From positions 1-20,504 of the IMG/VR virus record IMGVR_UViG_3300040811_000612: a DNA stretch of 20,504 nucleotides, one strand, 5' to 3'. The notes beneath the pieces were generated by a model. It was not told where the DNA came from. It worked only from the letters and a program-made list of their open reading frames with translations, and did not search any database. Origin of the DNA: a virus. Position numbers and translations under genes: made by a program. This document shows, piece after piece, positions 1,595 through 15,771 of this stretch; the stretch's first letter is position 1; the number at the start of each line of letters is the position of its first letter.

Positions 1595-4500
1595 TACATT
1601 AAACCTCTTTGTCTAAGACGTATTTGTTGTTCTTCTGGTGATAATAACGCCATTTCTGTTGGTGTCAATCCTTGAGCTGTGGCTAATTGTGTTTCTTGAT
1701 TAATAATTCCTAAATTAGGCATAGGTGTTGGAGGTAATGGTGTTTGTGCTAATGGTTCTTCTGTAGGTAACATTTCCATGAAATCTATTGGATCAACCAC
1801 ATCATTAAAATTCATATCTAAATTTAAACCTTTTAAATTATTTAACACAGCTCTAATTGCAGGTCTTGCTTGTTCATAAGGATTAACAATACCTATATTT
1901 TGTTCTATTTGCCTAAACTCTTTTCTTATATTATCCGATGGAACAAACGGAGAAAACTTAGCTCTAGTTAATCTTCTAAAATCATTTGAAAGTTGTCTTT
2001 CATTAAATTCTTTTCTAATATTTCTAGAAGGTGCACCTAAAATATTAGCTGCTAATAAATCTTTTCTCATTTCTTTTTGAACATTAAATCTAGCTTTGTT
2101 AGCTGCAATAAATCTTTGTAAAACATCTTGAGGAGTTTTAGGTCCTCCTTTTAAAAGACCTTCATCACCACCTGTAAATAATCTACGCGATTCCCTTAAT
2201 CCTCTTTGATAATCTGCTAATTTAAAACCAAGTGATTTAACGGGATCTAATTTTACTACACGGAAACCAGCGAAACCTGTTAATTCATCAGGTAATTCAA
2301 AAAATTCACCACGTTTAGATGGTTTATCTGCAGCAGCTTGATAAATTCTATTTAGGGTTGGATAAGAGAAAGGTAACATTGCTTCTGCTAAGTGTTCTAT
2401 TGAGTTTTGAACAACCTGTCCAGGTTCAGTTTCTAGTTGTGTTTCAGTCCAAATTTGCTGACCTTCTCGAGTTCGACCTCCTCTTAATGTTAAATCTACT
2501 AACGCTTGTGTATATATTGCTTCTGATATAAATGGAGAAGCAAGTTCACCAGCAGCTTCATACATTCCTCTTAACAATCCAGGCATCAATGTTTTTTCAT
2601 CTGTAATACCTTGTTGAACATTATTTAAAACAGTATTAATAGGTCTAATAGCTGTGTCGTAAGCATTACCATGACTAAAGTCTACATATTTTAAATCTCC
2701 TGTTTCTTCATCTCTAACAGGTAGTATTGTAGAATTTTTTGACCATTCAGGCAAATATCTACGCATTGCATCTATTTCTTCATTTGATACATCATACAAG
2801 GCTTGAAATCCTTTAGTAAGACCATACGGAGCAACTCCTAACACTGTGGTAAGTCCCAATAATCTTTTATATCCAATCGATCTTAAAGCAGGATCATTTA
2901 TTTCTTTGATAGCTCTATGTGCAATATTAGTTGTAGTTCTTAATATTTCTGATGGAAATGACATAAATGTACCAAGAGGTAAACGTCTTAGAGCTCTAAC
3001 TGTATCAGACACATACGCATAATTAGGCACAGTGTTTCTTACAATATCAGCCGCTTCGTTGTCTAATAAATCATCTGTAAATTCTCTACCTGCTTTTGTA
3101 AACGCATTTTTTAATCTTGATCTTTCAACTGCAAAGTTTGCTATCTTAAATAAATCGTCTTCCGCGGTATATAAATCTTCTGCAAACTTCATTCCTTTTT
3201 TTGCACCTCTTATTGTGCCACCAAAAAGTTTTTTACCCATTGATTCTAAAGGTTTATCTAAATTTAAATTTTCACCAAATCGAACATCTTTTAAAAGATT
3301 TTTTATATCTCCTAATTGCACTTGTGAATTTACTACACCTAGTTTTAATAGTTTTCTATATTGTTCATTTTGTTCTGCAGTAGTTTTTCCAACCTGTAAA
3401 TTACCAAAAGCTTCTTTAAAAGCTTTTCCAACAGTAATTGGATTTTCAAACATAATACCATTTGCTGCAGAAAAACCTGTCGCAGAAAATAAATTTCTAA
3501 AGTGTGTGACCGGTGATAGAATTGTTTTAGCAACTTGAGCTGCTCCTTTTGGAGCTAATATTAAATTTCTATACATCCAAGTCCCTAGCTCCTCGATACC
3601 AGTTGCCCCTTCCCTTGGTTCAAATAAACCTTTAAATGCTCTTGAGCTATCTCCAAGACCTTCTGCAATTGCTTTAGATGTGTATAAACCCTGTAATGGA
3701 TTCACTGCAAAATCATCTTTAAAAAAAGGTGCTAGATATTTATCTAATTCTACTATTTCTTGATTGGGTAATGCTCTTTGAGCTTTTAAATTTTTTACAT
3801 CATCTAAAGTAAAAAAGAAACCTTCTTCTCCAGCTCCTCCTGCTTTTGCACCAGATGATACATCAAACTTTATTTTATCATCATTTTTTGCCAAAGACTC
3901 TAGTAATTCGTTTCTTCGTGCAACACTCGATAATCTTGCCATGCCATTGTATATAGAATATCTTGGATCTTCCATCTTTCCAAAATAGTCTCTAAATATT
4001 TTACTTCCTTCTCCAATAACTTGATCTACTTTCTGACCATTTATATCTCTTGTTACAATTTGTTTAAAATATTTTTTAGTAACAACATCATCGGCTCCAG
4101 GTGTTAAATTTATATATTTAGTAAAAGATAATTGTTTAGGTGATTTAGCTTCTGTTGCATTTTTATATATATTATTAACTAACGTGTCTGCTTCCATATC
4201 TGTTAATCCATTTTTAATGGGATCAAAATTAGGATTTTTTCTATTTGCAAATCTATGATATCTTTTAAATAATTGTTTTACGTTTTTAGTTGCATCATCT
4301 GTTGGTTTATAACTTAAAAAAGGTATAGAAGATTTGTCTTCAAATATTTGATATGTGTTACCTAAATATTCTTTTGTTCTTTCACCTAATAAACTTTTTA
4401 ATTGAGCAACGTCTTTAGGTGCATTTGAACTTGCGTCTATTAATGATGTAAATTTATTTCTACTAATATCTATTATATCAAACAAGTTATTAACACCCTC

Positions 4501-6560: not shown

Positions 6561-7391
6561 CTATTTAATTAAATTATATATACCAGCGAGTGTTGATGCA
6601 ACTCCTAGCCCTGTCGATAATCCTGATGGTGATGGTTGTATCATTTGTTTTGTTTGAGCGGGATAGCCTGAAATTAAACCCATAACACCTTGTCCAAGTT
6701 GTTGAACGTTTTGAAAAGGTTGATACGCAGTTTGATATGCAAGTTGTTTTTGTGCATCAAAAATAGCTTGTTGTTGAGCTTGTTGACCAGCTCCTAATGC
6801 GCTTAAAGCACTTATCTGTTGACCTGCTAATGCAGGAGTAGTTCTTGCTAAATTCATTTGTTGACCAAAAGCTTGACTTGCCAATTGTTGCGCTTGACCA
6901 AAACCTTGTTGTAATAAATTTGCTTGTAGCGCAGCTCTGTTTCTATCAGATTCTCCTCCATAAACTGCTCTTTGCACACCTTCACGTCCTCCACCAAAAG
7001 CTCCTGCACTGATTGCTGATGCTGCTAAACCTGGTACACCTCTTTGCGCTTGAATATCATATTCTGCTAAAGTTGTATCAATAACATCTTTTTGATAAGG
7101 AGACATATATGCTTTATACGCATTAGGGTCTGATAATCCTGCAGCTGCTTTTAAAAATGGCTCATAAGAACCAATTCCTTGTAAAGCTAATTCTTCGGCT
7201 TTTTGAGTTAAAGCTCCTGGACCAGCTACAAACTTCTCTCCATAAAATTTAGATGGGTCAATATCTACTAATCCTTTTCCAGCAAATTGATCTGTTCCAC
7301 CGTAAGCTTTTGTTAATAAATCAGCAAAAGTTTTACCTAATCCTTCAATAAATTCTGCAGGTAGTTGTCTTATTTCTTGTACTTCAGCCAT
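6561..7391 (-). CDS. putative internal virion/injection protein, Gln/Ala-rich, 276 aa
   Basis: Residues about 95-142 hold the recognisable block: YMSPYQKDVIDTTLAEYD followed by ASAISAGAFGGGREGVQRA. This pattern (SPY-x-Q-x-V, later AGAFGG-x-R) recurs in phage virion proteins often labelled DNA-transfer or injection proteins. Residues 150-235 are strikingly Gln/Ala-rich and helical (QQGFGQAQQLASQAFGQQ). The C-terminus (about 250-276) has a short hydrophobic stretch, GLGVASTLAGIYNLI, which could contact membrane. The strong Shine-Dalgarno (GGAGG about 9 bases upstream) and the TAATG overlap with the preceding stop support the start at 7391. A T7 gp14/gp15 or P22 ejection-protein-like role is inferred from position and composition. 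Confidence 0.78.
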   Translation of the reverse strand: MAEVQEIRQLPAEFIEGLGKTFADLLTKAYGGTDQFAGKGLVDIDPSKFYGEKFVAGPGALTQKAEELALQGIGSYEPFLKAAAGLSDPNAYKAYMSPYQKDVIDTTLAEYDIQAQRGVPGLAASAISAGAFGGGREGVQRAVYGGESDRNRAALQANLLQQGFGQAQQLASQAFGQQMNLARTTPALAGQQISALSALGAGQQAQQQAIFDAQKQLAYQTAYQPFQNVQQLGQGVMGLISGYPAQTKQMIQPSPSGLSTGLGVASTLAGIYNLIK

Positions 7392-8566
7392 TAAACTTTT
7401 CCTCCATTTTCTAAAGTCTTCATTAGTCTATACATCTTTTGTGCACCAGTTTCAATGTTTCCATTACCGGCTCCCCTTACTGCATCTGCAGTCATAACAA
7501 ACTCATTTTTAGACAACATTGCAGGAACATCATCTGCTTTTTCTTTAATTCCTACAGGAACAAAACCACCTTCTTCTCTATAATCTCGTTCCATTATACC
7601 TGCTTGATTAGTTCTCATTATACCCATAGGCATGCCACCATCTGCTTTTTTAGTTCTAATTTCAGCCACTGCTTCTTTTATTAAATTGTTCGCTTCTTCT
7701 AAAGATAAACCATAATTTTCCATTAATTCTTTTCTTTTTGGTTTAAAATATTCATTAATCATAAAATCTTTAGTGCTCATTGTTTCTGTATCTTCTAGTT
7801 CACCATCTTCTCTAGGTAAACTTCTTACTGCCATCATTGTTCTTGCTATTTCAGTTGCTGCTTGTCTATCAGCATCTTCAGGAATAGGGTTATATGTTGT
7901 TGTATCAATTTGTAATCCTCTTGGAAGATCTTCTAAATTATTATCTGTTCCACCTTCTTCAAAACCAACTCTACCTCCTGTAGCTAAATCTTGTTTAGCT
8001 GCATATTCACCTAATTGTGAACTTGCAAATTCTTCTGCTTCTTCTTCACTAGCCTCTTTATTTATATTTTGATAGTATTGTTTTATGTATTGCTTAACAA
8101 CAGCTGGATCTCTTTGATAAGCTTTTTGTGCTTCTAATGGACTTCCAAATAAAGAAGTTAGTAAAGCCGATCCACCTAATATTTTTCCACCTGTTTTTAA
8201 AATATCACTTATTCCTCCACTCTTAGTAATTCCTTCAGCTAAACCTTTTAATGAATATTGTGGACCACCAGGAGTTTTAGAAAATAAACTAGCGCCGGGT
8301 AAATTACCTAACTTAAAACCAGACATACCTGCTCTTTGAAAAGGACCAAGTGCTCCTCCACCTAGATAATATCCACCAGCAGCTAATAATGCTGCCTTAC
8401 CTAAATCAGAAGACAATATATCTTTAATACCACCAGTAACACCTTTAACAGCTTTTTTAACTTTTTTAGCTATACCGCCAAATAAATATTTTTGCCTGGT
8501 TTCTAAATTCATGATTCCACCTTGGCTTTGTAATTGTCTATACATTTGTGATCTTGATATCGCCAT
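7391..8566 (-). CDS. virion protein with EKADDVPAML-type C-terminus, 391 aa
   Basis: N-terminal residues 1-50 are basic and Gly-rich (GGIMNLETRQKYLFGGIAKK, 16-35). A hydrophobic Ala/Gly segment (58-75, ALLAAGGYYLGGGALG) may be a membrane helix. Residues 120-145 are again Gly/Leu-rich. ATGGRVGFEEGG (195-206) is a Gly-Gly signature I associate with many marine phage virion proteins. The C-terminal 55 residues form the conserved block: GGFVPVGIKEKADDVPAMLS (333-352), then FVMTADAVRGAGNGNIETGA, then YRLMKTLENGG. Related sequences occur in phage tail or internal structural proteins. It is first of the four ejection-type genes and is preceded by a 55-bp gap with a candidate promoter. The ribosome site is weak (AATAAGAAT before ATG). 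Exact function unknown. Confidence 0.8.
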   Translation of the reverse strand: MAISRSQMYRQLQSQGGIMNLETRQKYLFGGIAKKVKKAVKGVTGGIKDILSSDLGKAALLAAGGYYLGGGALGPFQRAGMSGFKLGNLPGASLFSKTPGGPQYSLKGLAEGITKSGGISDILKTGGKILGGSALLTSLFGSPLEAQKAYQRDPAVVKQYIKQYYQNINKEASEEEAEEFASSQLGEYAAKQDLATGGRVGFEEGGTDNNLEDLPRGLQIDTTTYNPIPEDADRQAATEIARTMMAVRSLPREDGELEDTETMSTKDFMINEYFKPKRKELMENYGLSLEEANNLIKEAVAEIRTKKADGGMPMGIMRTNQAGIMERDYREEGGFVPVGIKEKADDVPAMLSKNEFVMTADAVRGAGNGNIETGAQKMYRLMKTLENGGKV

Positions 8567-8583: not shown

Positions 8584-8612
8584 ATGTTAAGGCAGGTATA
8601 CAAACCTGTAAA
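8584..8612 (-). promoter_or_regulatory. candidate sigma70-type promoter with inverted repeat in spacer
   Basis: On the minus strand, TTTACA (8612-8607) is followed after exactly 17 bases by TAACAT (8589-8584). This matches the -35 consensus at five of six positions and the -10 at four of six. It would start transcription just ahead of the 391-aa virion gene. The spacer contains a perfect 5-bp inverted repeat, CAGGT (8593-8597) and ACCTG (8604-8608), with a 6-base loop, which could be an operator. The hairpin has no U-run after it, so a terminator is less likely. The site lies in the 55-bp gap 8567-8621, one of the two largest non-coding stretches in the window. Chance matches are common in AT-rich DNA. 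Confidence 0.35.
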
Positions 8613-8621
8613 TGTTATACT

Positions 8622-9509
8622 TTATTTGATTTTTTCACTATCGTCAATATGTTTAAGATACTCTAATTCATCAAAAAATCTACCACAATATTGGTGCTCT
8701 CCAACGTGAGTAATATAGTCCATGATATACACATATACCTTACCTCCCATATCCGTCCATCGTTGACAAAAGCCAAAATCTTCTCCAAAATACCTTTTAG
8801 TATCTGGTTCATGTAAAGTATCAAAAAGATTAAAAAACTTTTCTTTTTTAGACTCTTTACCATTAATAATTGTGGGTTGATATATCTCTAATTCAGGATG
8901 ATTATCTATAAGTTTTTCTAGTACATGTCTTTTTATTAACATACACCCTGTAGGAGCATGAGACACTTCTAGTATTCCTTTATCTACTACTATATTTTTT
9001 TTGTCCTTTAACTTTAATGGAAACATATAAGAAGATCTAAGAAAGTCTTCTTTATTTTTAATTGTTTCATATTTTTCTGTAGCTCTTCTCCACATCTTAT
9101 TGGTGTCAATTGTTTTCATAGGATAAGGACAAGAGATTATATCTTTATCTGCCTCAATCATTTTCATAATCGTATTATATTCAAAGTCTATGTCTGAATC
9201 TATAAACAATAAATATTCATAATCATGATCATGATTTAAAAATTCTGCTACACAAAGGTTTCTTCCTTGTGTAACTAATGATGACTTTAATAATGTAAAA
9301 CTAACTAGTATATCATTTTTCATACATTGTTGTTGAAACATTAGTACAGCTTGAGTGTAATGCATCGATACTTCTGAATGACAAGGAGTACATACCATTA
9401 TTTTATACTTTGGTTTTTTATTACCTAAATGTATCTCTTGTACTTTTGATTCTTTTATTGTTTGGTAAGTGTCTTCATTAAACCATATCGGTTCATTGTT
9501 TTTTTGCAT
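8622..9509 (-). CDS. GT-A fold glycosyltransferase-like protein
   Basis: 295 residues. KIMVCTPCHSEVSMHYTQA (36-54) is the nucleotide-sugar-binding first strand and loop. LVTQGRNLCVAEFL (78-91) carries a conserved Arg. YLLFIDSDIDF (99-109) contains the DSD metal-binding triad (D104, D106). SHAPTGCMLIKR (183-194) precedes YFGEDFGFCQRW (240-251), where the Glu-Asp pair resembles the catalytic region, and THVGEH (267-272) supplies a late metal-ligand His. This is a standard GT-A layout, so transfer of a sugar to an unknown acceptor in the cytoplasm is expected. It overlaps the preceding glycosyltransferase by 17 bp and has a good ribosome site (GAAGGAG). It may glycosylate virion fibres or host surface polymers; substrate unknown. 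Confidence 0.85.
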   Translation of the reverse strand: MQKNNEPIWFNEDTYQTIKESKVQEIHLGNKKPKYKIMVCTPCHSEVSMHYTQAVLMFQQQCMKNDILVSFTLLKSSLVTQGRNLCVAEFLNHDHDYEYLLFIDSDIDFEYNTIMKMIEADKDIISCPYPMKTIDTNKMWRRATEKYETIKNKEDFLRSSYMFPLKLKDKKNIVVDKGILEVSHAPTGCMLIKRHVLEKLIDNHPELEIYQPTIINGKESKKEKFFNLFDTLHEPDTKRYFGEDFGFCQRWTDMGGKVYVYIMDYITHVGEHQYCGRFFDELEYLKHIDDSEKIK

Positions 9510-10434
9510 TAATTGCTCCTTCTAAAAACAAAGACCACGCAATGCCTTGTTTTTTCCAATTGTATGATTTGTTTGTATAGTTTATTTGTAGTTTTAAATG
9601 TTCTTGTATATTTTTATGATGTAAAGTCGCTGCAGCAGTATCTATTGCTTTTGCAAATTTAACAGCTAATTGTTTATAATTTTTATTATAAGGAACATAT
9701 ACTGGAAATTCTGCACCAGTTTCATATATTGCACCAAAGTTAGTAACAATACAATATAAACCTGCAGCCATAGATTCTATTAAAGATATACAAGAAGTTT
9801 CTTCCCATATGCTAGGATACACATACATACGATAATTCTTTAATTGTTTTTTTATAAAATCGTTTGATTTATAACCTATATAATTTACGTTTGGTAAAAA
9901 GTCTGCTTGTTCGTAAAGTGTTTTATAATACTTATCATGTTGATCATAAAAATCTTTGCCATATATTTGAGTAGAGGAATAAACATCTAGACTAACTAAA
10001 GGATTGGTAACTAATTGCATAGCACCTAATAAAACACTTAAACCTCTCCAAGGTGTGTTGTGATGTATTATTTTTATTTTTTCTCCGGTAGTGTATTGTG
10101 TTAAAATAGGTTCTATATTATCAATACCATTTTTAACAACTAAACATTTTTCTGTAGGTAAATCAAAAAACATTCTAAACTTTTCACAATTCCAATGACT
10201 GTTAAATACATACCAATCATACTTGTGATGATTTGATTTATCTTTAAACCATGGAACAAGATTTGGTTGATCATAAGAATTTTTTTGCCAAAGAATATTT
10301 ACTTTGTTAGGATCTATAGTTATTTTTTCAGGTATAGATGTACAAATTTGAACTTGATCCAACAAATCTTGTTTTACATATTTGGTTAGATAGTCAAATT
10401 GTAACTCTGTTCCACCTTTAGCTGTTTGGTTCAT
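9493..10434 (-). CDS. GT-B (family 4-like) glycosyltransferase
   Basis: 313 residues. The N-terminus shows KGGTEL (6-11), the usual opening glycine loop, which supports the ATG at 10434. VFNSHWNCEKFRMFFDLP (76-93) and VVKNGID (99-105) match the inter-domain region. IIHHNTPWRGLSVLLGAM (122-139) begins the C-terminal Rossmann domain and carries the donor-binding Arg. YVYPSIWEETSCISLIESMA (204-223) holds the E-x7-E motif (E212, E220) that binds the sugar nucleotide. The protein is shorter than most GT4 enzymes because the N-terminal domain is compact. It overlaps both neighbours by 17 bp, so it is probably translated together with the GT-A enzyme as a pair adding successive sugars. Acceptor unknown. 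Confidence 0.85.
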   Translation of the reverse strand: MNQTAKGGTELQFDYLTKYVKQDLLDQVQICTSIPEKITIDPNKVNILWQKNSYDQPNLVPWFKDKSNHHKYDWYVFNSHWNCEKFRMFFDLPTEKCLVVKNGIDNIEPILTQYTTGEKIKIIHHNTPWRGLSVLLGAMQLVTNPLVSLDVYSSTQIYGKDFYDQHDKYYKTLYEQADFLPNVNYIGYKSNDFIKKQLKNYRMYVYPSIWEETSCISLIESMAAGLYCIVTNFGAIYETGAEFPVYVPYNKNYKQLAVKFAKAIDTAAATLHHKNIQEHLKLQINYTNKSYNWKKQGIAWSLFLEGAINAKKQ

Positions 10435-10603
10435 TATCTTTTTTCATAACTTTCTGTAAAATTTCTAAACCTTTTGGAGAAACCTCAATGGTTACATCTT
10501 GAACAATATCTTTCCCTTCTTTCTTATTTTTAAAAACTTCCCCTGTTTTTGTATTTCTATATGTTATTGTAGTTGTACAATTAATTTTTGGTAAATTATC
10601 CAT
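10418..10603 (-). CDS. small conserved phage protein, 61 aa, unknown function
   Basis: A short acidic and basic protein with a predicted beta-rich core: INCTTTITYRNTKTGEVFKN (8-27), then DIVQDVTIEVSPKGLEIL (32-49). The pattern ITYRN-x-K-TG-E followed by DVTI-x-V reminds me of small proteins near tail genes in marine phages, but I cannot name a function. It overlaps the preceding gene by 8 bp and the following glycosyltransferase by 17 bp, and has a modest purine-rich ribosome site (AAGAGA). The overlapping arrangement on both sides supports a real gene rather than a chance frame. Confidence 0.65.
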   Translation of the reverse strand: MDNLPKINCTTTITYRNTKTGEVFKNKKEGKDIVQDVTIEVSPKGLEILQKVMKKDNEPNS

Positions 10604-10931
10604 TCTCTTGCGATCTATCTATTAAAGCATAACTCACAACGCCTGTTATTTCATTCGCTGAACTTGCTTGCATCTTTATAACATCTCCTGCTTCTAAATT
10701 CAAGGTATTTACAATCATATTTACCATACTTTTATTAAGTTGTGCATGTCCTATTTCTGTATCACTGCCACCAGATTTTTTTAAATATAGATCAGCGTCT
10801 ACGTTTGATGAATCTTGATGACTAGCTTGTACAGTTTTTACAATTGCTACTGCAGAAGTAGCTACTGTTAATACTGTTGTTAAATTAGTATCTGTTAAAT
10901 CAAATACTTCACTTTTATATTGTATGGTCAT
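10596..10931 (-). CDS. small beta-sandwich virion protein, 111 aa
   Basis: Alternating hydrophobic beta pattern throughout, with no charged helices: VFDLTDTNLTTVLTVATSAV (9-28), IVKTVQASHQ, VDADLYLKKSG, then LEAGDVIKMQASSANEITGV (76-95) and VSYALID near the end. The block L-x-x-GD-x-I-x-x-x-A followed by G-x-x-SY is typical of small phage head-tail or decoration proteins with a jelly-roll or Ig-like fold. Its start overlaps the preceding stop (ATGA at 10931-10928) and the ribosome site is weak, so expression probably depends on translational coupling. Structural role inferred; exact position in the particle unknown. Confidence 0.68.
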   Translation of the reverse strand: MTIQYKSEVFDLTDTNLTTVLTVATSAVAIVKTVQASHQDSSNVDADLYLKKSGGSDTEIGHAQLNKSMVNMIVNTLNLEAGDVIKMQASSANEITGVVSYALIDRSQENG

Positions 10932-11092
10932 GATAAAAAATAATTATATGTATCTTGTTCTTCTTTCAAGTCATTTTGAAATGAAAAATTAAGTTGATTC
11001 TTTACAGTGTCTAGTGCTTCTATAATTTGTCTTTGGTTTGATACTTCGTATTCTTCTTTTGGTTCAGGTATGTATGCTGCTATCTTAGCCAT
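10928..11092 (-). CDS. small hypothetical protein, 54 aa
   Basis: A longer frame runs to 11143, but I choose the internal ATG at 11092-11090. That ATG has a good ribosome site (GGAAGAAG about 5 bases upstream), forms TAATG with the stop of the 720-aa gene, and avoids a 52-bp overlap. The product begins MAKIAAYIPEPKEEYEVSNQ. It is acidic and helical, with RQIIEALDTVKNQLNFSF near the middle (20-37), and ends in a polar tail. No family recognised. Its place directly after the neck/tail protein and before a small beta protein suggests a minor virion or assembly component. Confidence 0.65.
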   Translation of the reverse strand: MAKIAAYIPEPKEEYEVSNQRQIIEALDTVKNQLNFSFQNDLKEEQDTYNYFLS

Positions 11093-13254
11093 TATCTTCT
11101 TCCATCTGGTTTTATATCTACTCGTAATGTTCCATAACGCCAAGTCTCCCCTATAGCATCATTTTCTATTTTAATTGCAAGTAGTCTTCCTCTAGCTCTA
11201 GTATCTACTTTATCAGTAGAAGATGTTATTGTAAAGGGTCCAAGAGGTGAGCTAGATGCTGTATCTGTTGGATAATTATTTAGTAATAATGTAATTTTTG
11301 AATTGCCGTCTAATACTTTAAAATCTGGTACAAATCTTTTTATAGACATTATAAATTGACCATCTCCTTGTAAGTTAGCCATATTATTGGAGTTAACAAT
11401 ATCAAAATCTCCTGATTGTATAAAGGCATCAATTGATGTTGTACCAGAACTGTTGACTTGATCGGTTCCGGTCTCATGTTCGTAATAAGTTGTTGCTCCA
11501 TAAGTTGCTGTAACTCCTTGTATTGAAAAAGTAGGTAAAGCAGTTTTACTATATTCAGTTGCATATGGTAAATCATATACTCCTGTATCGATATAAGTTG
11601 TTCTTGCTAATGAAGATGTAGTCCAAAGATTTTCTGCGTAGTTATATACTACACATCTATTAATTTGTTGTGAGTCGGACGTTGGGTAAAACCAACTAAT
11701 TTCATTATATAAACTATTGTGTTCTGCATATATTAACATACTAGAGTTGTAGTTAATTCCTAAGTTGTCTCCACTTGTTGTAAACACAAAGTCTTCCACT
11801 AAACATGATATAGCTTTAACTGTACCATCAAATACAAAAAATCCTCCTTCACCTGACATCCAAAACACTTTACCATCAGAATAACTTAATGCGTTTTGAC
11901 CAATCAATCCACAGTTTGTACCGACTTGTCTAATACTAAATGTAAAAGGTGGCCCAACATATTGAATTACATAAGCAGAGGTATCTGTTAATACTAATGT
12001 ATAATCTTTACCAGATACTGCTCCAATAATCTCATTACCTTTATCTAATCTAAATGTACCTGCAGTATTAATTGCAGTTGGTTGATATACATTAAAATTT
12101 TCTTGATCACTAAATCTAATAAACATTGGATCTTGAGTTGTTGAATCACCTATTGTTGTTTCTGTTCCAAAATGGAATACGTGTCTATCTCTATCAGATA
12201 CTTGAGTTAATCTTGTTCTAGTTGGAGCGTTTGCCATGATAGTTGCTCTAACGTTTCTAGCTGACGCAGTGCCAGCATTCCATGTAAATGTTTCTCCGTT
12301 GTGAATAGTTGCAATTAATATTTGACCAAAATTATCTAATGACCATAAACCTGGATCCAATGTTATAGTAGATGATATTGCAGACTCCCCCCATCCTATA
12401 TAGTATTCAACAGAAGCTCCATTAGAATGAGCAGACCTTGTTCCTGCAGCTGCTCTTGTTATTCCTGTTAAATCATTTCCAGATATTCCGGTATAAGAAA
12501 TAAATTCTGCTCCTACTTTAATAGCTCCTGTTGTTGGAAAATTATCTGTTGAAGTTAAAGTTATACTTGTACCACTTCCTCCAGTACCATTTGTATCATC
12601 TAACAATGCGCCGTTAAGTGTTGTTGTAAGACCAGAAGCACCATCCCAACCAGCTGTACCCCAACCAAGGCCCACAGTTTGAAAAGTTGGACCTATAATT
12701 ACATATGGATCAATTTGTGCAGCGCCTGTCCCTGATGTAGTACCAGCTGAATTAGATGGCATTGTAATTTCAAATGTATCATTTGTTTTATTTAATACTT
12801 CAAAAGAATTATTAGTAAAATCAGTTGTTGCATAACCAGAACCTGTTGGAACAGTAACTGAAGAAAAAGTTATATATCTTCCATTTTGTAAACCATGACT
12901 AGTTTTGTTAACTGTAACAGTAGCAGATCCACTAGTTGCATCAAAATCAGCTCCAGTAATTACATCATTATCTATTGGAGTAATGTCAAAAAACTCACCC
13001 TCATAGTATAAAAACAAACCTTGAGAAGTACCAATAGCAACATATCTTTCACCTGTAAGACTAGTAAACGCGTGTTGAGCACGTGCTACTCCAGGTAATG
13101 TGGTATTAGAGTTTGTAAGTTGTTTCCAACCACCTATTTTTTCTGGTAACCCATATCTAAATCTAACAAAGTCACCATCAACCCATTGAGACTCAGCGCC
13201 TGAATCTGTAATTTGTTTATTAAAACCTGGTTTAAAATTTAATTTTTGTAACAT
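11092..13254 (-). CDS. large neck/tail structural protein, possible gp10-like propeller
   Basis: 720 residues, beta-rich throughout. It opens with NFKPGFNKQITDSGAESQWV then GDFVRFRYGLPEKIGGW (27-43), a start typical of a family of phage neck/tail proteins. Repeated short strands such as YVAIGTSQGLFLYYEG (71-86), DYTLVLTDTSAYVIQY and GKVFWMSGEGGFFVFDG look like propeller blades, as in the P22 gp10 packaged-DNA stabilisation hub. Two inserted modules interrupt it. Residues about 100-181 match the FCCH-like beta module seen in phage proteins (TVNKTSHGLQNGRYITF, then FEVLNKTNDTFEI). Residues about 228-285 carry AIKVGAEFISYTG and a THR/AHSNGASVEY-like ending. It likely closes the tail channel or anchors fibres. 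The ribosome site is weak and a candidate promoter lies 30-60 bp upstream. Assignment to gp10 is tentative. Confidence 0.75.
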   Translation of the reverse strand: MLQKLNFKPGFNKQITDSGAESQWVDGDFVRFRYGLPEKIGGWKQLTNSNTTLPGVARAQHAFTSLTGERYVAIGTSQGLFLYYEGEFFDITPIDNDVITGADFDATSGSATVTVNKTSHGLQNGRYITFSSVTVPTGSGYATTDFTNNSFEVLNKTNDTFEITMPSNSAGTTSGTGAAQIDPYVIIGPTFQTVGLGWGTAGWDGASGLTTTLNGALLDDTNGTGGSGTSITLTSTDNFPTTGAIKVGAEFISYTGISGNDLTGITRAAAGTRSAHSNGASVEYYIGWGESAISSTITLDPGLWSLDNFGQILIATIHNGETFTWNAGTASARNVRATIMANAPTRTRLTQVSDRDRHVFHFGTETTIGDSTTQDPMFIRFSDQENFNVYQPTAINTAGTFRLDKGNEIIGAVSGKDYTLVLTDTSAYVIQYVGPPFTFSIRQVGTNCGLIGQNALSYSDGKVFWMSGEGGFFVFDGTVKAISCLVEDFVFTTSGDNLGINYNSSMLIYAEHNSLYNEISWFYPTSDSQQINRCVVYNYAENLWTTSSLARTTYIDTGVYDLPYATEYSKTALPTFSIQGVTATYGATTYYEHETGTDQVNSSGTTSIDAFIQSGDFDIVNSNNMANLQGDGQFIMSIKRFVPDFKVLDGNSKITLLLNNYPTDTASSSPLGPFTITSSTDKVDTRARGRLLAIKIENDAIGETWRYGTLRVDIKPDGRR

Positions 13255-13261
13255 AGTTAAA

Positions 13262-13293
13262 AGTATTTTAATAAATACTATATAATATATAGT
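13262..13293. repeat. two overlapping perfect inverted repeats in 60-bp gap
   Basis: AGTATTT (13262-13268) and AAATACT (13273-13279) form a 7-bp stem with a 4-base TAAT loop. Immediately overlapping, ACTATATA (13277-13284) and TATATAGT (13286-13293) form an 8-bp palindrome around one central base. They occupy half of the 60-bp gap between the oxygenase stop and the 720-aa gene start. Possible roles are an operator, a weak terminator for the oxygenase, or a leader hairpin near the 720-aa ribosome site. The DNA here is over 80% A/T, which raises the chance expectation. Confidence 0.5.
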
Positions 13294-13312
13294 GTTCTAA
13301 ATATACAGTAAA
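13284..13312 (-). promoter_or_regulatory. candidate late promoter ahead of 720-aa tail gene
   Basis: On the minus strand TTTACT (13312-13307) precedes TATATT (13289-13284) by 17 bases. This matches sigma70 -35 at four of six and -10 at five of six positions. The -10 lies inside the 8-bp palindrome at 13277-13293, which could let a repressor or activator control it. Transcription would start near 13277 and the 7-bp hairpin would form in the short leader. The composition is so A/T-rich that a chance match is quite possible. Confidence 0.35.
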
Positions 13313-13314
13313 TT

Positions 13315-13989
13315 TTATATTTTAAACCAACTATTTGGTGAAGGTAAATTATGCTCAGATTTAACACCTTCTTTCATAGTAATCATAATATCTCCCGATA
13401 TAGATATACGCGGTTTTTCTTTTGTATTTTTACCCGTTTCATGAAATATCATAGATGGAAATATAATTATATTACCTGTTTCTGCAGGATATTCAGCCTT
13501 ACCGTAATTAGTATTATTCCACTCTGTAAAGTATGGATCTCTTTTAGGTATATTTAATCCTACCTTATGGGCATCATCATCAAGCAAAAATAAATTACCT
13601 TGTTCATGAGCTTGTGGATAATAGACAAAACTAAAATGACTACTCATATGTCTATGATAAGAAATAAATTGTTCTTTAGTGGATAAAGTTGCCCAGGACT
13701 TGGTAATGTATATTTCAAATAAATCTAAATTATATTTTTGTGCTAATAAACAATCTTTAATTATTTTAGATAATTCAATGTATAATTCATTAAATCTTTT
13801 ATCTTTGTGTAAATTGTCATCAATTGATTGTAATTCTTTCGGTTTTACATCTGTAGTTGTTGAATACTGAGAATTAGTTGGAGTAATATCTTTTAATATT
13901 ATAGGTACTATTTTTTTATTAATATTTTCAAAATTTTTTAATTTAGTTATAAATATTGGATAACCAAACCATTTAGTAATGTTGCTCAT
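13315..13989 (-). CDS. 2OG-Fe(II) oxygenase-like protein
   Basis: 224 residues. FISYHRHMSSHFSFVYYPQ (108-126) supplies the proximal iron ligand region (H112, H114) followed by the FSFVYY strand. GNIIIFPSMIFHETGKNT (172-189) supplies the distal ligand H183, and R194 in KPRISISGD would bind the 2-oxoglutarate carboxylate. This layout (H-x-H, VYY, then FPS-x-x-x-H and R-x-S-x-S-x-D) fits the phage and marine-bacterial 2OG-Fe(II) oxygenase families such as the PF13759 group. Such enzymes use iron, oxygen and 2-oxoglutarate to hydroxylate a protein or small molecule. It is the only enzyme inside the structural block here, flanked on both sides by palindromes (13262-13293 and 14007-14016). The ribosome site is weak (AAAGAAAG). 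Substrate unknown; a virion protein is one possibility. Confidence 0.85.
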   Translation of the reverse strand: MSNITKWFGYPIFITKLKNFENINKKIVPIILKDITPTNSQYSTTTDVKPKELQSIDDNLHKDKRFNELYIELSKIIKDCLLAQKYNLDLFEIYITKSWATLSTKEQFISYHRHMSSHFSFVYYPQAHEQGNLFLLDDDAHKVGLNIPKRDPYFTEWNNTNYGKAEYPAETGNIIIFPSMIFHETGKNTKEKPRISISGDIMITMKEGVKSEHNLPSPNSWFKI

Positions 13990-14006
13990 AATTCTTTCTT
14001 TTTAAT

Positions 14007-14016
14007 TAGTATACTA
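14007..14016. repeat. 10-bp perfect palindrome at oxygenase upstream boundary
   Basis: TAGTATACTA reads the same on both strands and contains the TAG stop codon (14016-14014) of the glycine-rich adhesin gene. It lies in the 24-bp gap upstream of the oxygenase start. It shares the TAGTAT core with the repeat on the other side of the oxygenase gene (13274-13280 region). It might be a regulator site or an insertion scar; on its own a 10-bp AT-rich palindrome is weak evidence. Confidence 0.3.
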
Positions 14017-14865
14017 GATTACTTGTAAAAATCTATATTTAATTTCACCATCACCACCTGCAGCACCTTGGGTAGATCCACTATTTACTTGTGCAGCTCC
14101 ACCTCCACCGCCAGATCCTCTTGTTCCAGCAGTACCTGCAGTACCTGCACCTACAGAAGAACCTCCAGCTCCACCTAAAATACTTCCGTCATAAGAATCT
14201 GCTCCATCATTACCATTTATTCTACAGTTATCTCCATTACAGTTACCCGGTCCTCGACCAACATCTCCTGATATATTTCCCACAGCTCCGTCACCCGAAT
14301 CATTAAATGTAGTTGTTGGACCTGAGGTGTTACTGGTTACATTTTTAACACTGTTGTCTGAATCTGAAAAAATTCCTGAAGTAATTGCAGTGCCGTTAAT
14401 AGTAGCTGATCCTGCTGTTCCTGCTGTATTATCTCTTACAGGGCCTTGTACTCCACCATTTGCACATGAAGATCCTCCACCACCACTTAATGTAAATATT
14501 GCTCCTGTTGTTGATCCAGATAAAGTCGTATCCGTTCCATCACCTGCACTTCCACTATAAACACCTGTGCCTCTTGCACCTCCTTCGCCAACTGCGTAAG
14601 TTATTGTTTCTCCCGCTGTAACAGAAAATATTTTATCAGATATAAACGCACCCGATCCTCCACCCGCTCCGGCAGATTCTCCTCCTGCTTTATCATAGTC
14701 AGCACCTCGCATTGCACCTCCACCGGCACCTACAGCATATTGAATATGAATTGCATTATATCCAGTTGGAACACTGAATGTAGAAGATCCAGAAGTTAGT
14801 TCAACAAACGATGTTGCTGGAAGACCGCCTCCACTGGAACCTATTAATAAACTATAATGGGTCAT
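14014..14865 (-). CDS. glycine-rich tail adhesin
   Basis: 283 residues. Residues about 18-45 form a beta strand pair (FSVPTGYNAIHIQYAVGAGG) that introduces a glycine-rich domain. Poly-Gly blocks follow at 45-72, 93-112, 127-140 and 230-275, separated by short strands such as FISDKIFSVTAGETITYAVG. This is the pattern of the Gly-rich domain in phage tail fibres. In gp38-type adhesins such blocks pack as polyglycine-II helices whose loops bind host receptors. Three Cys residues (134, 209, 214) lie in the loops. The C-terminus ends in a strand (GEIKYRFLQVI). The ribosome site AGGA overlaps the previous TAG stop (14877-14875). Receptor-binding role is inferred from family behaviour. Confidence 0.82.
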   Translation of the reverse strand: MTHYSLLIGSSGGGLPATSFVELTSGSSTFSVPTGYNAIHIQYAVGAGGGAMRGADYDKAGGESAGAGGGSGAFISDKIFSVTAGETITYAVGEGGARGTGVYSGSAGDGTDTTLSGSTTGAIFTLSGGGGSSCANGGVQGPVRDNTAGTAGSATINGTAITSGIFSDSDNSVKNVTSNTSGPTTTFNDSGDGAVGNISGDVGRGPGNCNGDNCRINGNDGADSYDGSILGGAGGSSVGAGTAGTAGTRGSGGGGGAAQVNSGSTQGAAGGDGEIKYRFLQVI

Positions 14866-14874
14866 AGTTTTTTC

Positions 14875-15771
14875 CTATGATAAAAGTCCGCCAGTAATTA
14901 CAAATGTATTAGTTCCTACACAAAGAACTGTTGCAACTCCTCTAGTTGCTAGAGTTCTATTTGCATCTGTTCCATCGGTTACCCAATACATAGTAACTCC
15001 AGTTCCTTTTGAAATAGTTAAATCACTAACTGTATTATTATAAACTGTTACAGTTTGCCCTGCAGAAAAAATTGAAGGAGGAACAGTAATATTTCCTGAT
15101 GCCAAAACCACTTTACCATGGTCACTTGCAACAAAAGTATAAGTAGATGCTTGAGTATTAGTTGGAACTAATCGTATTTCTCCTTTTTGATCAACCATGT
15201 CTCCAGCAGTTGTTGTAATATTATTTGCTGCTGTAACATTGTCACTAACAGTAATACCACTAACATTAGTAGTATTTGTAACAGTTACATTACTGACACT
15301 AATTGTTCCATCAGAAGTACTGCCATTTGATACGACTTGTTGTAAAGTTGTATTTGCTAAACTAGATCCACTAATATCTGTTACATTAGTTCCGTCAGAA
15401 TATACTATATGAATTTTATTATTAATTAGAGTAACACCTGTTCCAGAAACAGTTTTAAAAGTTAAACTATAACCTCCACGACTTGTTGTATCATGTAAAA
15501 TATAAACTTTTTCTATATTATCTGGAATAGTAACTGTAGTATTAGCAGTTAAAGACCCAGTAAATTTAAGGACCATATTCTTACCATTAGAAACAGCTCC
15601 ATTAGAAACAGACAAAGCAGCTGAAGTAGTGGTTATATTATATGAGTCATAACCAGATATAGCTTGTTCTAATATAAGTAAATTAGTATTAGTAATCTGA
15701 CCCCAAGTTCCTGAATTTTCTCCAGTTTGTTGGACAGTTAATTTTAAATTCGCTGATGTGGTATTTGCCAT
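14875..15771 (-). CDS. tail fibre-like protein, 298 aa
   Basis: Opens with MANTTSANLKLTVQQTGENS then GTWGQITNTNLLILEQAISG (21-40), a start I associate with tail-fibre-like proteins of marine phages. The body is nearly all Ser/Thr/Val/Asn beta strands. Residues about 65-140 include KNMVLKFTGSLTANTTVTIP and VYILHDTTSRGGYSLTFKT. Residues 145-200 are a short-strand repetitive shaft rich in VSNVTVTN. The C-terminal 90 residues (GEIRLVPTNTQASTYTFVAS onward) look like a compact beta domain. Ribosome site GGAG lies about 9 bases upstream. It neighbours the Gly-rich adhesin and the repeat protein, which fits a fibre gene cluster. A chance hydrolase was looked for and not seen. Confidence 0.78.
   Translation of the reverse strand: MANTTSANLKLTVQQTGENSGTWGQITNTNLLILEQAISGYDSYNITTTSAALSVSNGAVSNGKNMVLKFTGSLTANTTVTIPDNIEKVYILHDTTSRGGYSLTFKTVSGTGVTLINNKIHIVYSDGTNVTDISGSSLANTTLQQVVSNGSTSDGTISVSNVTVTNTTNVSGITVSDNVTAANNITTTAGDMVDQKGEIRLVPTNTQASTYTFVASDHGKVVLASGNITVPPSIFSAGQTVTVYNNTVSDLTISKGTGVTMYWVTDGTDANRTLATRGVATVLCVGTNTFVITGGLLS

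Follow-up and report, generated by a model that had tools for sequence, protein, structure and literature searches.

Gene content of the window

We analysed a window of 20,504 nucleotides (nt), positions 1 to 20,504 of IMG/VR virus record IMGVR_UViG_3300040811_000612, which comes from a Pelagibacter podovirus of the HTVC023P type, i.e. a phage of SAR11. Among annotated phages it is closest to two Pelagibacter podoviruses, HTVC027P and HTVC023P, which show 68–74% DNA identity across three quarters of positions 8600–14000 and have a similar gene order. Our subject is an oxygenase gene (OXY) and a pair of glycosyltransferase (GT) genes (GT-A and GT-B), all on the minus strand among the late genes. 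The original prediction, made from the sequence alone, proposed that these three genes might form one cassette for hydroxylation followed by glycosylation. We found that OXY is linked to a glycine-rich (Gly-rich) adhesin, with which it is exchanged as a unit, and that the GT pair is a separate near-core unit of the tail/internal-protein operon. The genes that matter most are listed below, with the basis of each assignment in brackets where one applies.

8622..9509, minus strand: GT-A, a GT-A-fold glycosyltransferase (phrog_1574), second gene of the GT pair (profile, motif, model)
9493..10434, minus strand: GT-B, a GT4-like glycosyltransferase of GT-B type (PF00534) (profile, EX7E motif)
11092..13254, minus strand: p720, a 720-aa virion structural protein (phrog_3287), right border of the adhesin slot and neutral anchor
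13315..13989, minus strand: OXY, a PF13759 oxygenase of 224 aa, last gene of the adhesin slot (profile, conservation, model)
14014..14865, minus strand: gly283, a Gly-rich adhesin-like protein (PF21722) of 283 aa, partner of OXY (profile, gene maps)
14875..15771, minus strand: p298, a 298-aa protein with a conserved N-terminus (MANTTSANLKLTVQ), left border of the slot (profile, relatives)

All genes named in the original prediction were found where it had placed them, on the minus strand. It had also described the oxygenase and the two GTs as the only enzymes of the 20-kb late module, but they are not the only ones of the window: positions 130–789 encode the C-terminal part of a superfamily 2 (SF2) helicase, an assignment based on the sequence and on where this gene lies in HTVC027P, though outside the late operon. 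Compared with relatives, the ratio of nonsynonymous to synonymous substitution rates (dN/dS) was 0.09 for OXY, 0.06 for GT-A and 0.09 for GT-B, the GT values being based on two relatives only. Hence, with ratios of 0.06–0.09, which indicate purifying selection, the three genes are not chance open reading frames (ORFs).

The oxygenase

By profile and fold, OXY belongs to the PF13759 branch of the 2-oxoglutarate (2OG)-Fe(II) oxygenase superfamily. It scored 55.9 bits against PF13759 (cut-off 27) and matched phrog_81 with an E-value of 4e-32, while its score against TIGR02466 (60.9) was slightly under the cut-off of 62.5. The predicted model is of the double-stranded beta-helix type, with a predicted local distance difference test score (pLDDT) of 79 and a predicted template modelling score (pTM) of 0.81. 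Its first structural neighbours are 3bvc and 2rg4; below these rank small-molecule oxygenases and prolyl hydroxylases that act on proteins.

In the homologue alignment, H112 and H114 (the HxH motif at 112–114) are near-invariant and H183 is invariant. Throughout the PF13759 homologues, 3bvc and 2rg4 included, HxH...H takes the place of the HxD/E...H pattern of the superfamily, and the metal site may be a three-histidine site. Judged from these residues, the metal site of OXY appears unusual. OXY would presumably use 2OG.

Linkage of the oxygenase to the adhesin

The gene for gly283 lies about 25 nt upstream of OXY. The protein matched PF21722 with 30.5 bits (cut-off 24.3), while a sequence comparison of the adhesin with solved structures gave no match. 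Its 283 residues include 4 Lys and 5 Pro.

Related contigs were gathered with three anchors: GT-B, OXY and the neutral neighbour p720. A gly283-type adhesin was present in 54 of the 54 OXY-anchored loci with enough upstream sequence, and adjoins OXY in the gene maps. The same linkage is repeated in distant p720 lineages, so that this part of the original prediction, an oxygenase beside a Gly-rich adhesin, was borne out. The OXY sequences are 85–93% identical to that of the window, with 88–89% in loci L091 and L144, although p720 is only about 40% identical there. Furthermore, the combination of OXY and gly283 changed at least eight times on a tree of 134 p720 sequences. Because OXY is conserved across divergent p720 backgrounds and recurs on distant branches, OXY and gly283 move as a unit. 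In locus L070, an oxygenase with 35% identity stands in the place of OXY.

Independent occurrence of the glycosyltransferase pair

The original prediction expected the oxygenase, both GTs and the Gly-rich adhesin to be gained and lost together, and named independent occurrence across relatives in advance as the observation that would refute it. Their occurrence proved to be independent. The GT pair was found in 26/26 p720-anchored contigs long enough to reach the GT site, whereas OXY (at ≥60% identity) was found in 2 of 54 p720-anchored contigs. In the GT-anchored set, the pair was present in all 51 contigs, irrespective of the type of adhesin or oxygenase. Conversely, L091 has OXY and the adhesin with no GT in 6 kb of downstream virion genes, L144 has GT-A located elsewhere and no GT-B within 11 kb, and the complete circular record 023Pt_psg01 has oxygenases and Gly-rich adhesins with neither GT-A nor GT-B. 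OXY distances also correlated less with those of GT-B (rho 0.23) than with those of p720 (rho 0.69–0.76). The three-enzyme cassette therefore fails: its oxygenase–adhesin half stands, and the GT pair is not part of the same unit.

The two GT genes share a 17-nt overlap. GT-A matched phrog_1574 with an E-value of 4e-36, its motif D104-S105-D106 is invariant among 28 homologues, and its predicted model has a GT-A fold (pLDDT 86.5). By structure, the top match was A197 of Sulfolobus turreted icosahedral virus (STIV), followed by human LH3 and an LH3/ColGalT1 complex, with E-values from about 1e-7 to 7e-6; mimivirus R699 ranked 14th. As the template modelling scores (TM-scores) were about 0.4, the likeness to LH3 is at fold level only. 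STIV A197 was also nearest by sequence (E-value 0.0045). A weak match to PF03452 (Anp1) was obtained for 20 of the 28 GT-A homologues, and no family of a PLOD-type GT domain was among the Pfam matches of these 28 members. GT-B scored 49.4 bits against PF00534 (cut-off 26.4), and its EX7E residues E212 and E220 are invariant; compared by sequence with solved structures, it gave no match.

HTVC027P (MN698241.1) has a second GT-A homologue at 3472–4188, beside the primase gene and broken by an in-frame TAA. The GT pair of this phage goes together with a collar-type adhesin and with oxygenases other than OXY. Three further genes lie around the pair in the window. The 61-aa ORF, mostly seen together with the GT pair, is a possible accessory or substrate of it.

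7391..8566, minus strand: a 391-aa late protein, flanking the GT pair on its far side (ORF and gene maps)
10418..10603, minus strand: a 61-aa ORF overlapping the start of GT-B (ORF and gene maps)
10596..10931, minus strand: a conserved late protein of 111 aa, between p720 and the GT pair (profile, gene maps)

The receptor-binding slot

The genes between p298 and p720 were surveyed on both strands in 69 complete slots whose selection did not depend on OXY. Slot content changed at least 23 times on the tree of 134 p720 sequences. The slots comprised 37 with Gly-rich adhesins, 22 with collar-type fibres and 10 with other fibres. Oxygenases, one to nine per slot, were present in 55 of the 69: 33 of the 37 Gly-rich slots, 19 of the 22 collar-type slots and 3 of the 10 others. 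The pattern H.[DEH]...H...R/K occurred in 323 of the 328 called oxygenases, versus 40 of the 680 slot proteins not called as such.

In Gly-rich slots, 98 of 112 oxygenases were co-oriented with the structural genes, whereas all 51 in collar-type slots were antisense (examples are L001 at 13843–15504, L009, L017 and L220), which suggests that the latter are expressed separately. An earlier result of ours, that oxygenases are confined to Gly-rich adhesins (Fisher p 1e-7), was based on ORFs of one strand and was dropped, as collar-type slots carry antisense ones.

Other enzymes were found as well. Some slots contain a tryptophan halogenase (PF04820, E-value 2e-28); flavin-dependent tryptophan halogenase genes accompany oxygenases in or beside the slot in L173 (about 4.5 kb upstream of p720), L043 and L045. 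A Nol-like carbamoyltransferase occurs in some slots, in or beside the oxygenase arrays of L079, L084, L232 and L177, and in L169 (HTVC008M) at 1306–2751. Two families that are common in slots, phrog_2954 (annotated as ferrochelatase) and phrog_274 (annotated as DNA endonuclease V), have HxD...H motifs typical of oxygenases; they were seen in L173, L074, L084 and other loci, and in L168 at 11415–11957 (syn9 gp54). For phrog_274 there was sub-threshold Pfam support (PF13640), and for phrog_2954 the Pfam search gave no supporting match. Going by motif and context, phrog_2954 may be an oxygenase, and the published 'ferrochelatase partner' may thus be another oxygenase.

L183, L200 and L235 encode a p298-type protein that ends in a fused Gly-rich C-terminus, and oxygenases come after it; p298 may be the adhesin's own connector. 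A 105-aa ParB-like protein occurs in the adhesin slot of L094 and 18 other loci, and lies between adhesin and oxygenase in L070.

Oxygenases near Gly-rich genes in other marine phages

In the T4-like cyanophage syn9, two tryptophan halogenase genes (L168, 1778–4883) and then a run of oxygenase genes come after a Gly-rich fibre gene. Nine T4-like marine phages that carry a PF21722 gene, mostly picked via phrog_2954 and partly syntenic, had 66 PF13640 matches, of which 29 lay within 12 kb of the PF21722 gene, where 9.5 were expected; none of 5000 circular shifts gave as high a number. We also considered phrog_2954 as a universal marker of adhesins; this was ruled out, as the gene adjoins dam or replication genes in several cyanophages.

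Interpretation

We propose that the window contains two modules side by side, an exchangeable adhesin-tailoring oxygenase and an independent, near-core GT pair, and we assign this reading a probability of roughly one half. OXY and gly283 would form one interchangeable filling of the receptor-binding slot between p298 and p720. Late in the infected cell, OXY would oxidise, and probably hydroxylate, adhesin side chains, either while the virion is being assembled or earlier. This oxidation may alter the folding or binding of the Gly-rich tip, and thereby tune receptor binding or stability. Independently of OXY, a virion protein or a glycan of the host surface would receive one or two sugars from GT-A and GT-B. 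More tentatively, and with clearly less confidence, we suggest that marine phages possess an adhesin-tailoring system in which exchangeable oxygenases, sometimes joined by a tryptophan halogenase and a carbamoyltransferase, would add chemical variety to the translated adhesin.

Several observations weigh against an adhesin-tailoring role of OXY. The close relatives L173, L175 and L176 have gly283 without OXY; OXY is therefore dispensable for gly283 and the partnership is not obligate. OXY divergence follows that of p720 no less closely than that of gly283, which leaves no coevolution signal specific to the adhesin. Accordingly, we rejected coevolution of OXY and adhesin beyond common ancestry. 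No adhesin positions separated relatives with OXY from those without it, two sequences of the latter kind being comparable. Since collar-type slots also hold oxygenases, a single polyglycine chemistry is not indicated, and since OXY has HxH instead of HxD/E, turnover of 2OG is not assured. Furthermore, some cyanophages have phrog_2954 in the replication region. Host-recognition regions of marine phages are hypervariable and rich in accessory genes (PMC7029224), and proximity alone is therefore no proof of substrate.

OXY might instead act on the host surface, or on a lipid or sugar precursor, such that the receptor is altered and competing phages are blocked; its link to the adhesin would then reflect a shared host-range function. 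The position of OXY in the receptor-binding slot and its exchange together with the adhesin agree with this, and bacterial Kdo (3-deoxy-D-manno-octulosonic acid) and lipid A hydroxylases are oxygenases too. Host-recognition clusters of pelagimyophages contain surface-modifying GTs, which their authors interpret as superinfection blockers (PMC7029224). However, up to nine different oxygenases per slot exceed what a single receptor change would need, relatives retain the adhesin without OXY, and protein prolyl hydroxylases are found, together with metabolite enzymes, below the two uncharacterised proteins that head the structural neighbours of OXY, although the fold does not fix the substrate. 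We consider this reading unlikely. Slightly less likely again is that OXY is an auxiliary metabolic gene, serving 2OG/nitrogen balance, iron or DNA repair, that merely sits in a hypervariable region. Accessory genes do gather in such regions, and phage oxygenases of this kind have been linked to 2OG and nitrogen status (PMC3037559), to DNA repair (PMC2984593) and, through a ferrochelatase partner, to iron (PMC9599517). Yet a metabolic role leaves unexplained why one oxygenase orthologue is paired with one adhesin type in 54 of 54 loci, why slots hold one to nine different oxygenases, and why oxygenases are enriched near Gly-rich genes in unrelated phages; moreover, the 'ferrochelatase' behind the iron idea has the oxygenase-typical HxD...H motif.

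The cascade of the original prediction, in which OXY would place a hydroxyl on the Gly-rich adhesin or fibres and the GT pair would attach sugar to it, in the manner of LH3 on collagen, now appears very improbable. In its favour, LH3 and the LH3/ColGalT1 complex directly follow STIV A197 among the structural matches of GT-A, rank 14 is held by R699, whose collagen glucosyltransferase activity is proven (PMC9546862), and both GTs accompany OXY in the window as well as in the majority of OXY loci long enough to include the GT site. This modelled resemblance of GT-A to LH3 and R699 keeps such chemistry alive as a weak lead. In contrast, the GT pair is present in every slot type, also where OXY is missing, the virion module of L091 combines OXY and adhesin without the pair, the TM-scores to LH3 of about 0.4 come with no PLOD-type sequence match, and the adhesin is poor in both Lys and Pro. 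As for the GT pair alone, it is possible that its target is phage DNA or host O-antigen rather than a virion protein, which would be compatible with any role of OXY. In favour of this are the interrupted GT-A homologue beside the HTVC027P primase gene and the DNA hypermodification genes reported for some HTVC023P-type clades (PMC9599517); furthermore, GTs of SAR11 myophages have been interpreted as O-chain modifiers (PMC7029224), and the GT-B relative in Cr30 sits among sugar-nucleotide genes. Against it, the pair has its fixed place within the tail/internal-protein operon, outside the replication module, the annotations of HTVC027P and HTVC023P contain no hydroxymethylase, and restriction systems are rare in SAR11 (PMC7029224). 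DNA is the lesser option.

The proposed tailoring of the adhesin by OXY is directly testable in HTVC023P, a cultured isolate in which OXY, the adhesin and both GTs all have orthologues. Few unexplained 'auxiliary metabolic genes' of ocean phages are as common as those for 2OG-Fe(II) oxygenases, which are mostly linked to nitrogen, iron or DNA repair. Should many of these enzymes serve to tailor adhesins, a large category of annotations would have to be read differently. Host range in phages of the most abundant ocean bacteria would then partly rest on post-translational chemistry, and phages could vary their host-binding chemistry beyond the twenty amino acids.

Comparison with known systems

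No proposal that phage oxygenases modify adhesins was found in the open-access papers searched, mostly titles and abstracts, which is not proof of novelty. The proteins most like OXY are the PF13759/TIGR02466 members 3bvc and 2rg4 (Roseovarius, Oceanicola), which resemble it in profile, fold and the HxH...H...R pattern; unlike the phage-encoded OXY, they are uncharacterised bacterial proteins and are not known to have a virion partner. Likewise, STIV A197 (2c0n), a GT-A enzyme of an archaeal virus, is the best profile and structure match to GT-A of the window, but shares only 18% identity with it, is not known to be paired with a GT-B and belongs to a virus of an archaeal host.

LH3 and mimivirus L230/R699 carry out hydroxylation followed by glycosylation on a Gly-rich protein (PMC6082870, PMC9546862), and GT-A resembles LH3 and R699 in structure. 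In contrast to these systems, the GTs and the oxygenase of the window are separate genes that occur independently and lack a sequence match. The closest precedent for the GT pair is provided by mycobacteriophages Che8 and Rita, in which phage GTs are reported to modify the phage's own virion (PMC11256854, citing Freeman 2023). Their target is the capsid and their GT genes are located close to the 3' end of the genome, whereas the pair described here lies in the tail/internal-protein operon.

Finally, the '2OG-Fe(II) oxygenase and ferrochelatase partner' genes described for HTVC023P-type pelagiphages (PMC9599517) come from the same phage group and are, by annotation, the same kinds of genes. 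That study reads them as auxiliary metabolic genes, whereas we place them in the receptor-binding slot, where the 'ferrochelatase' has motifs of the oxygenase type.

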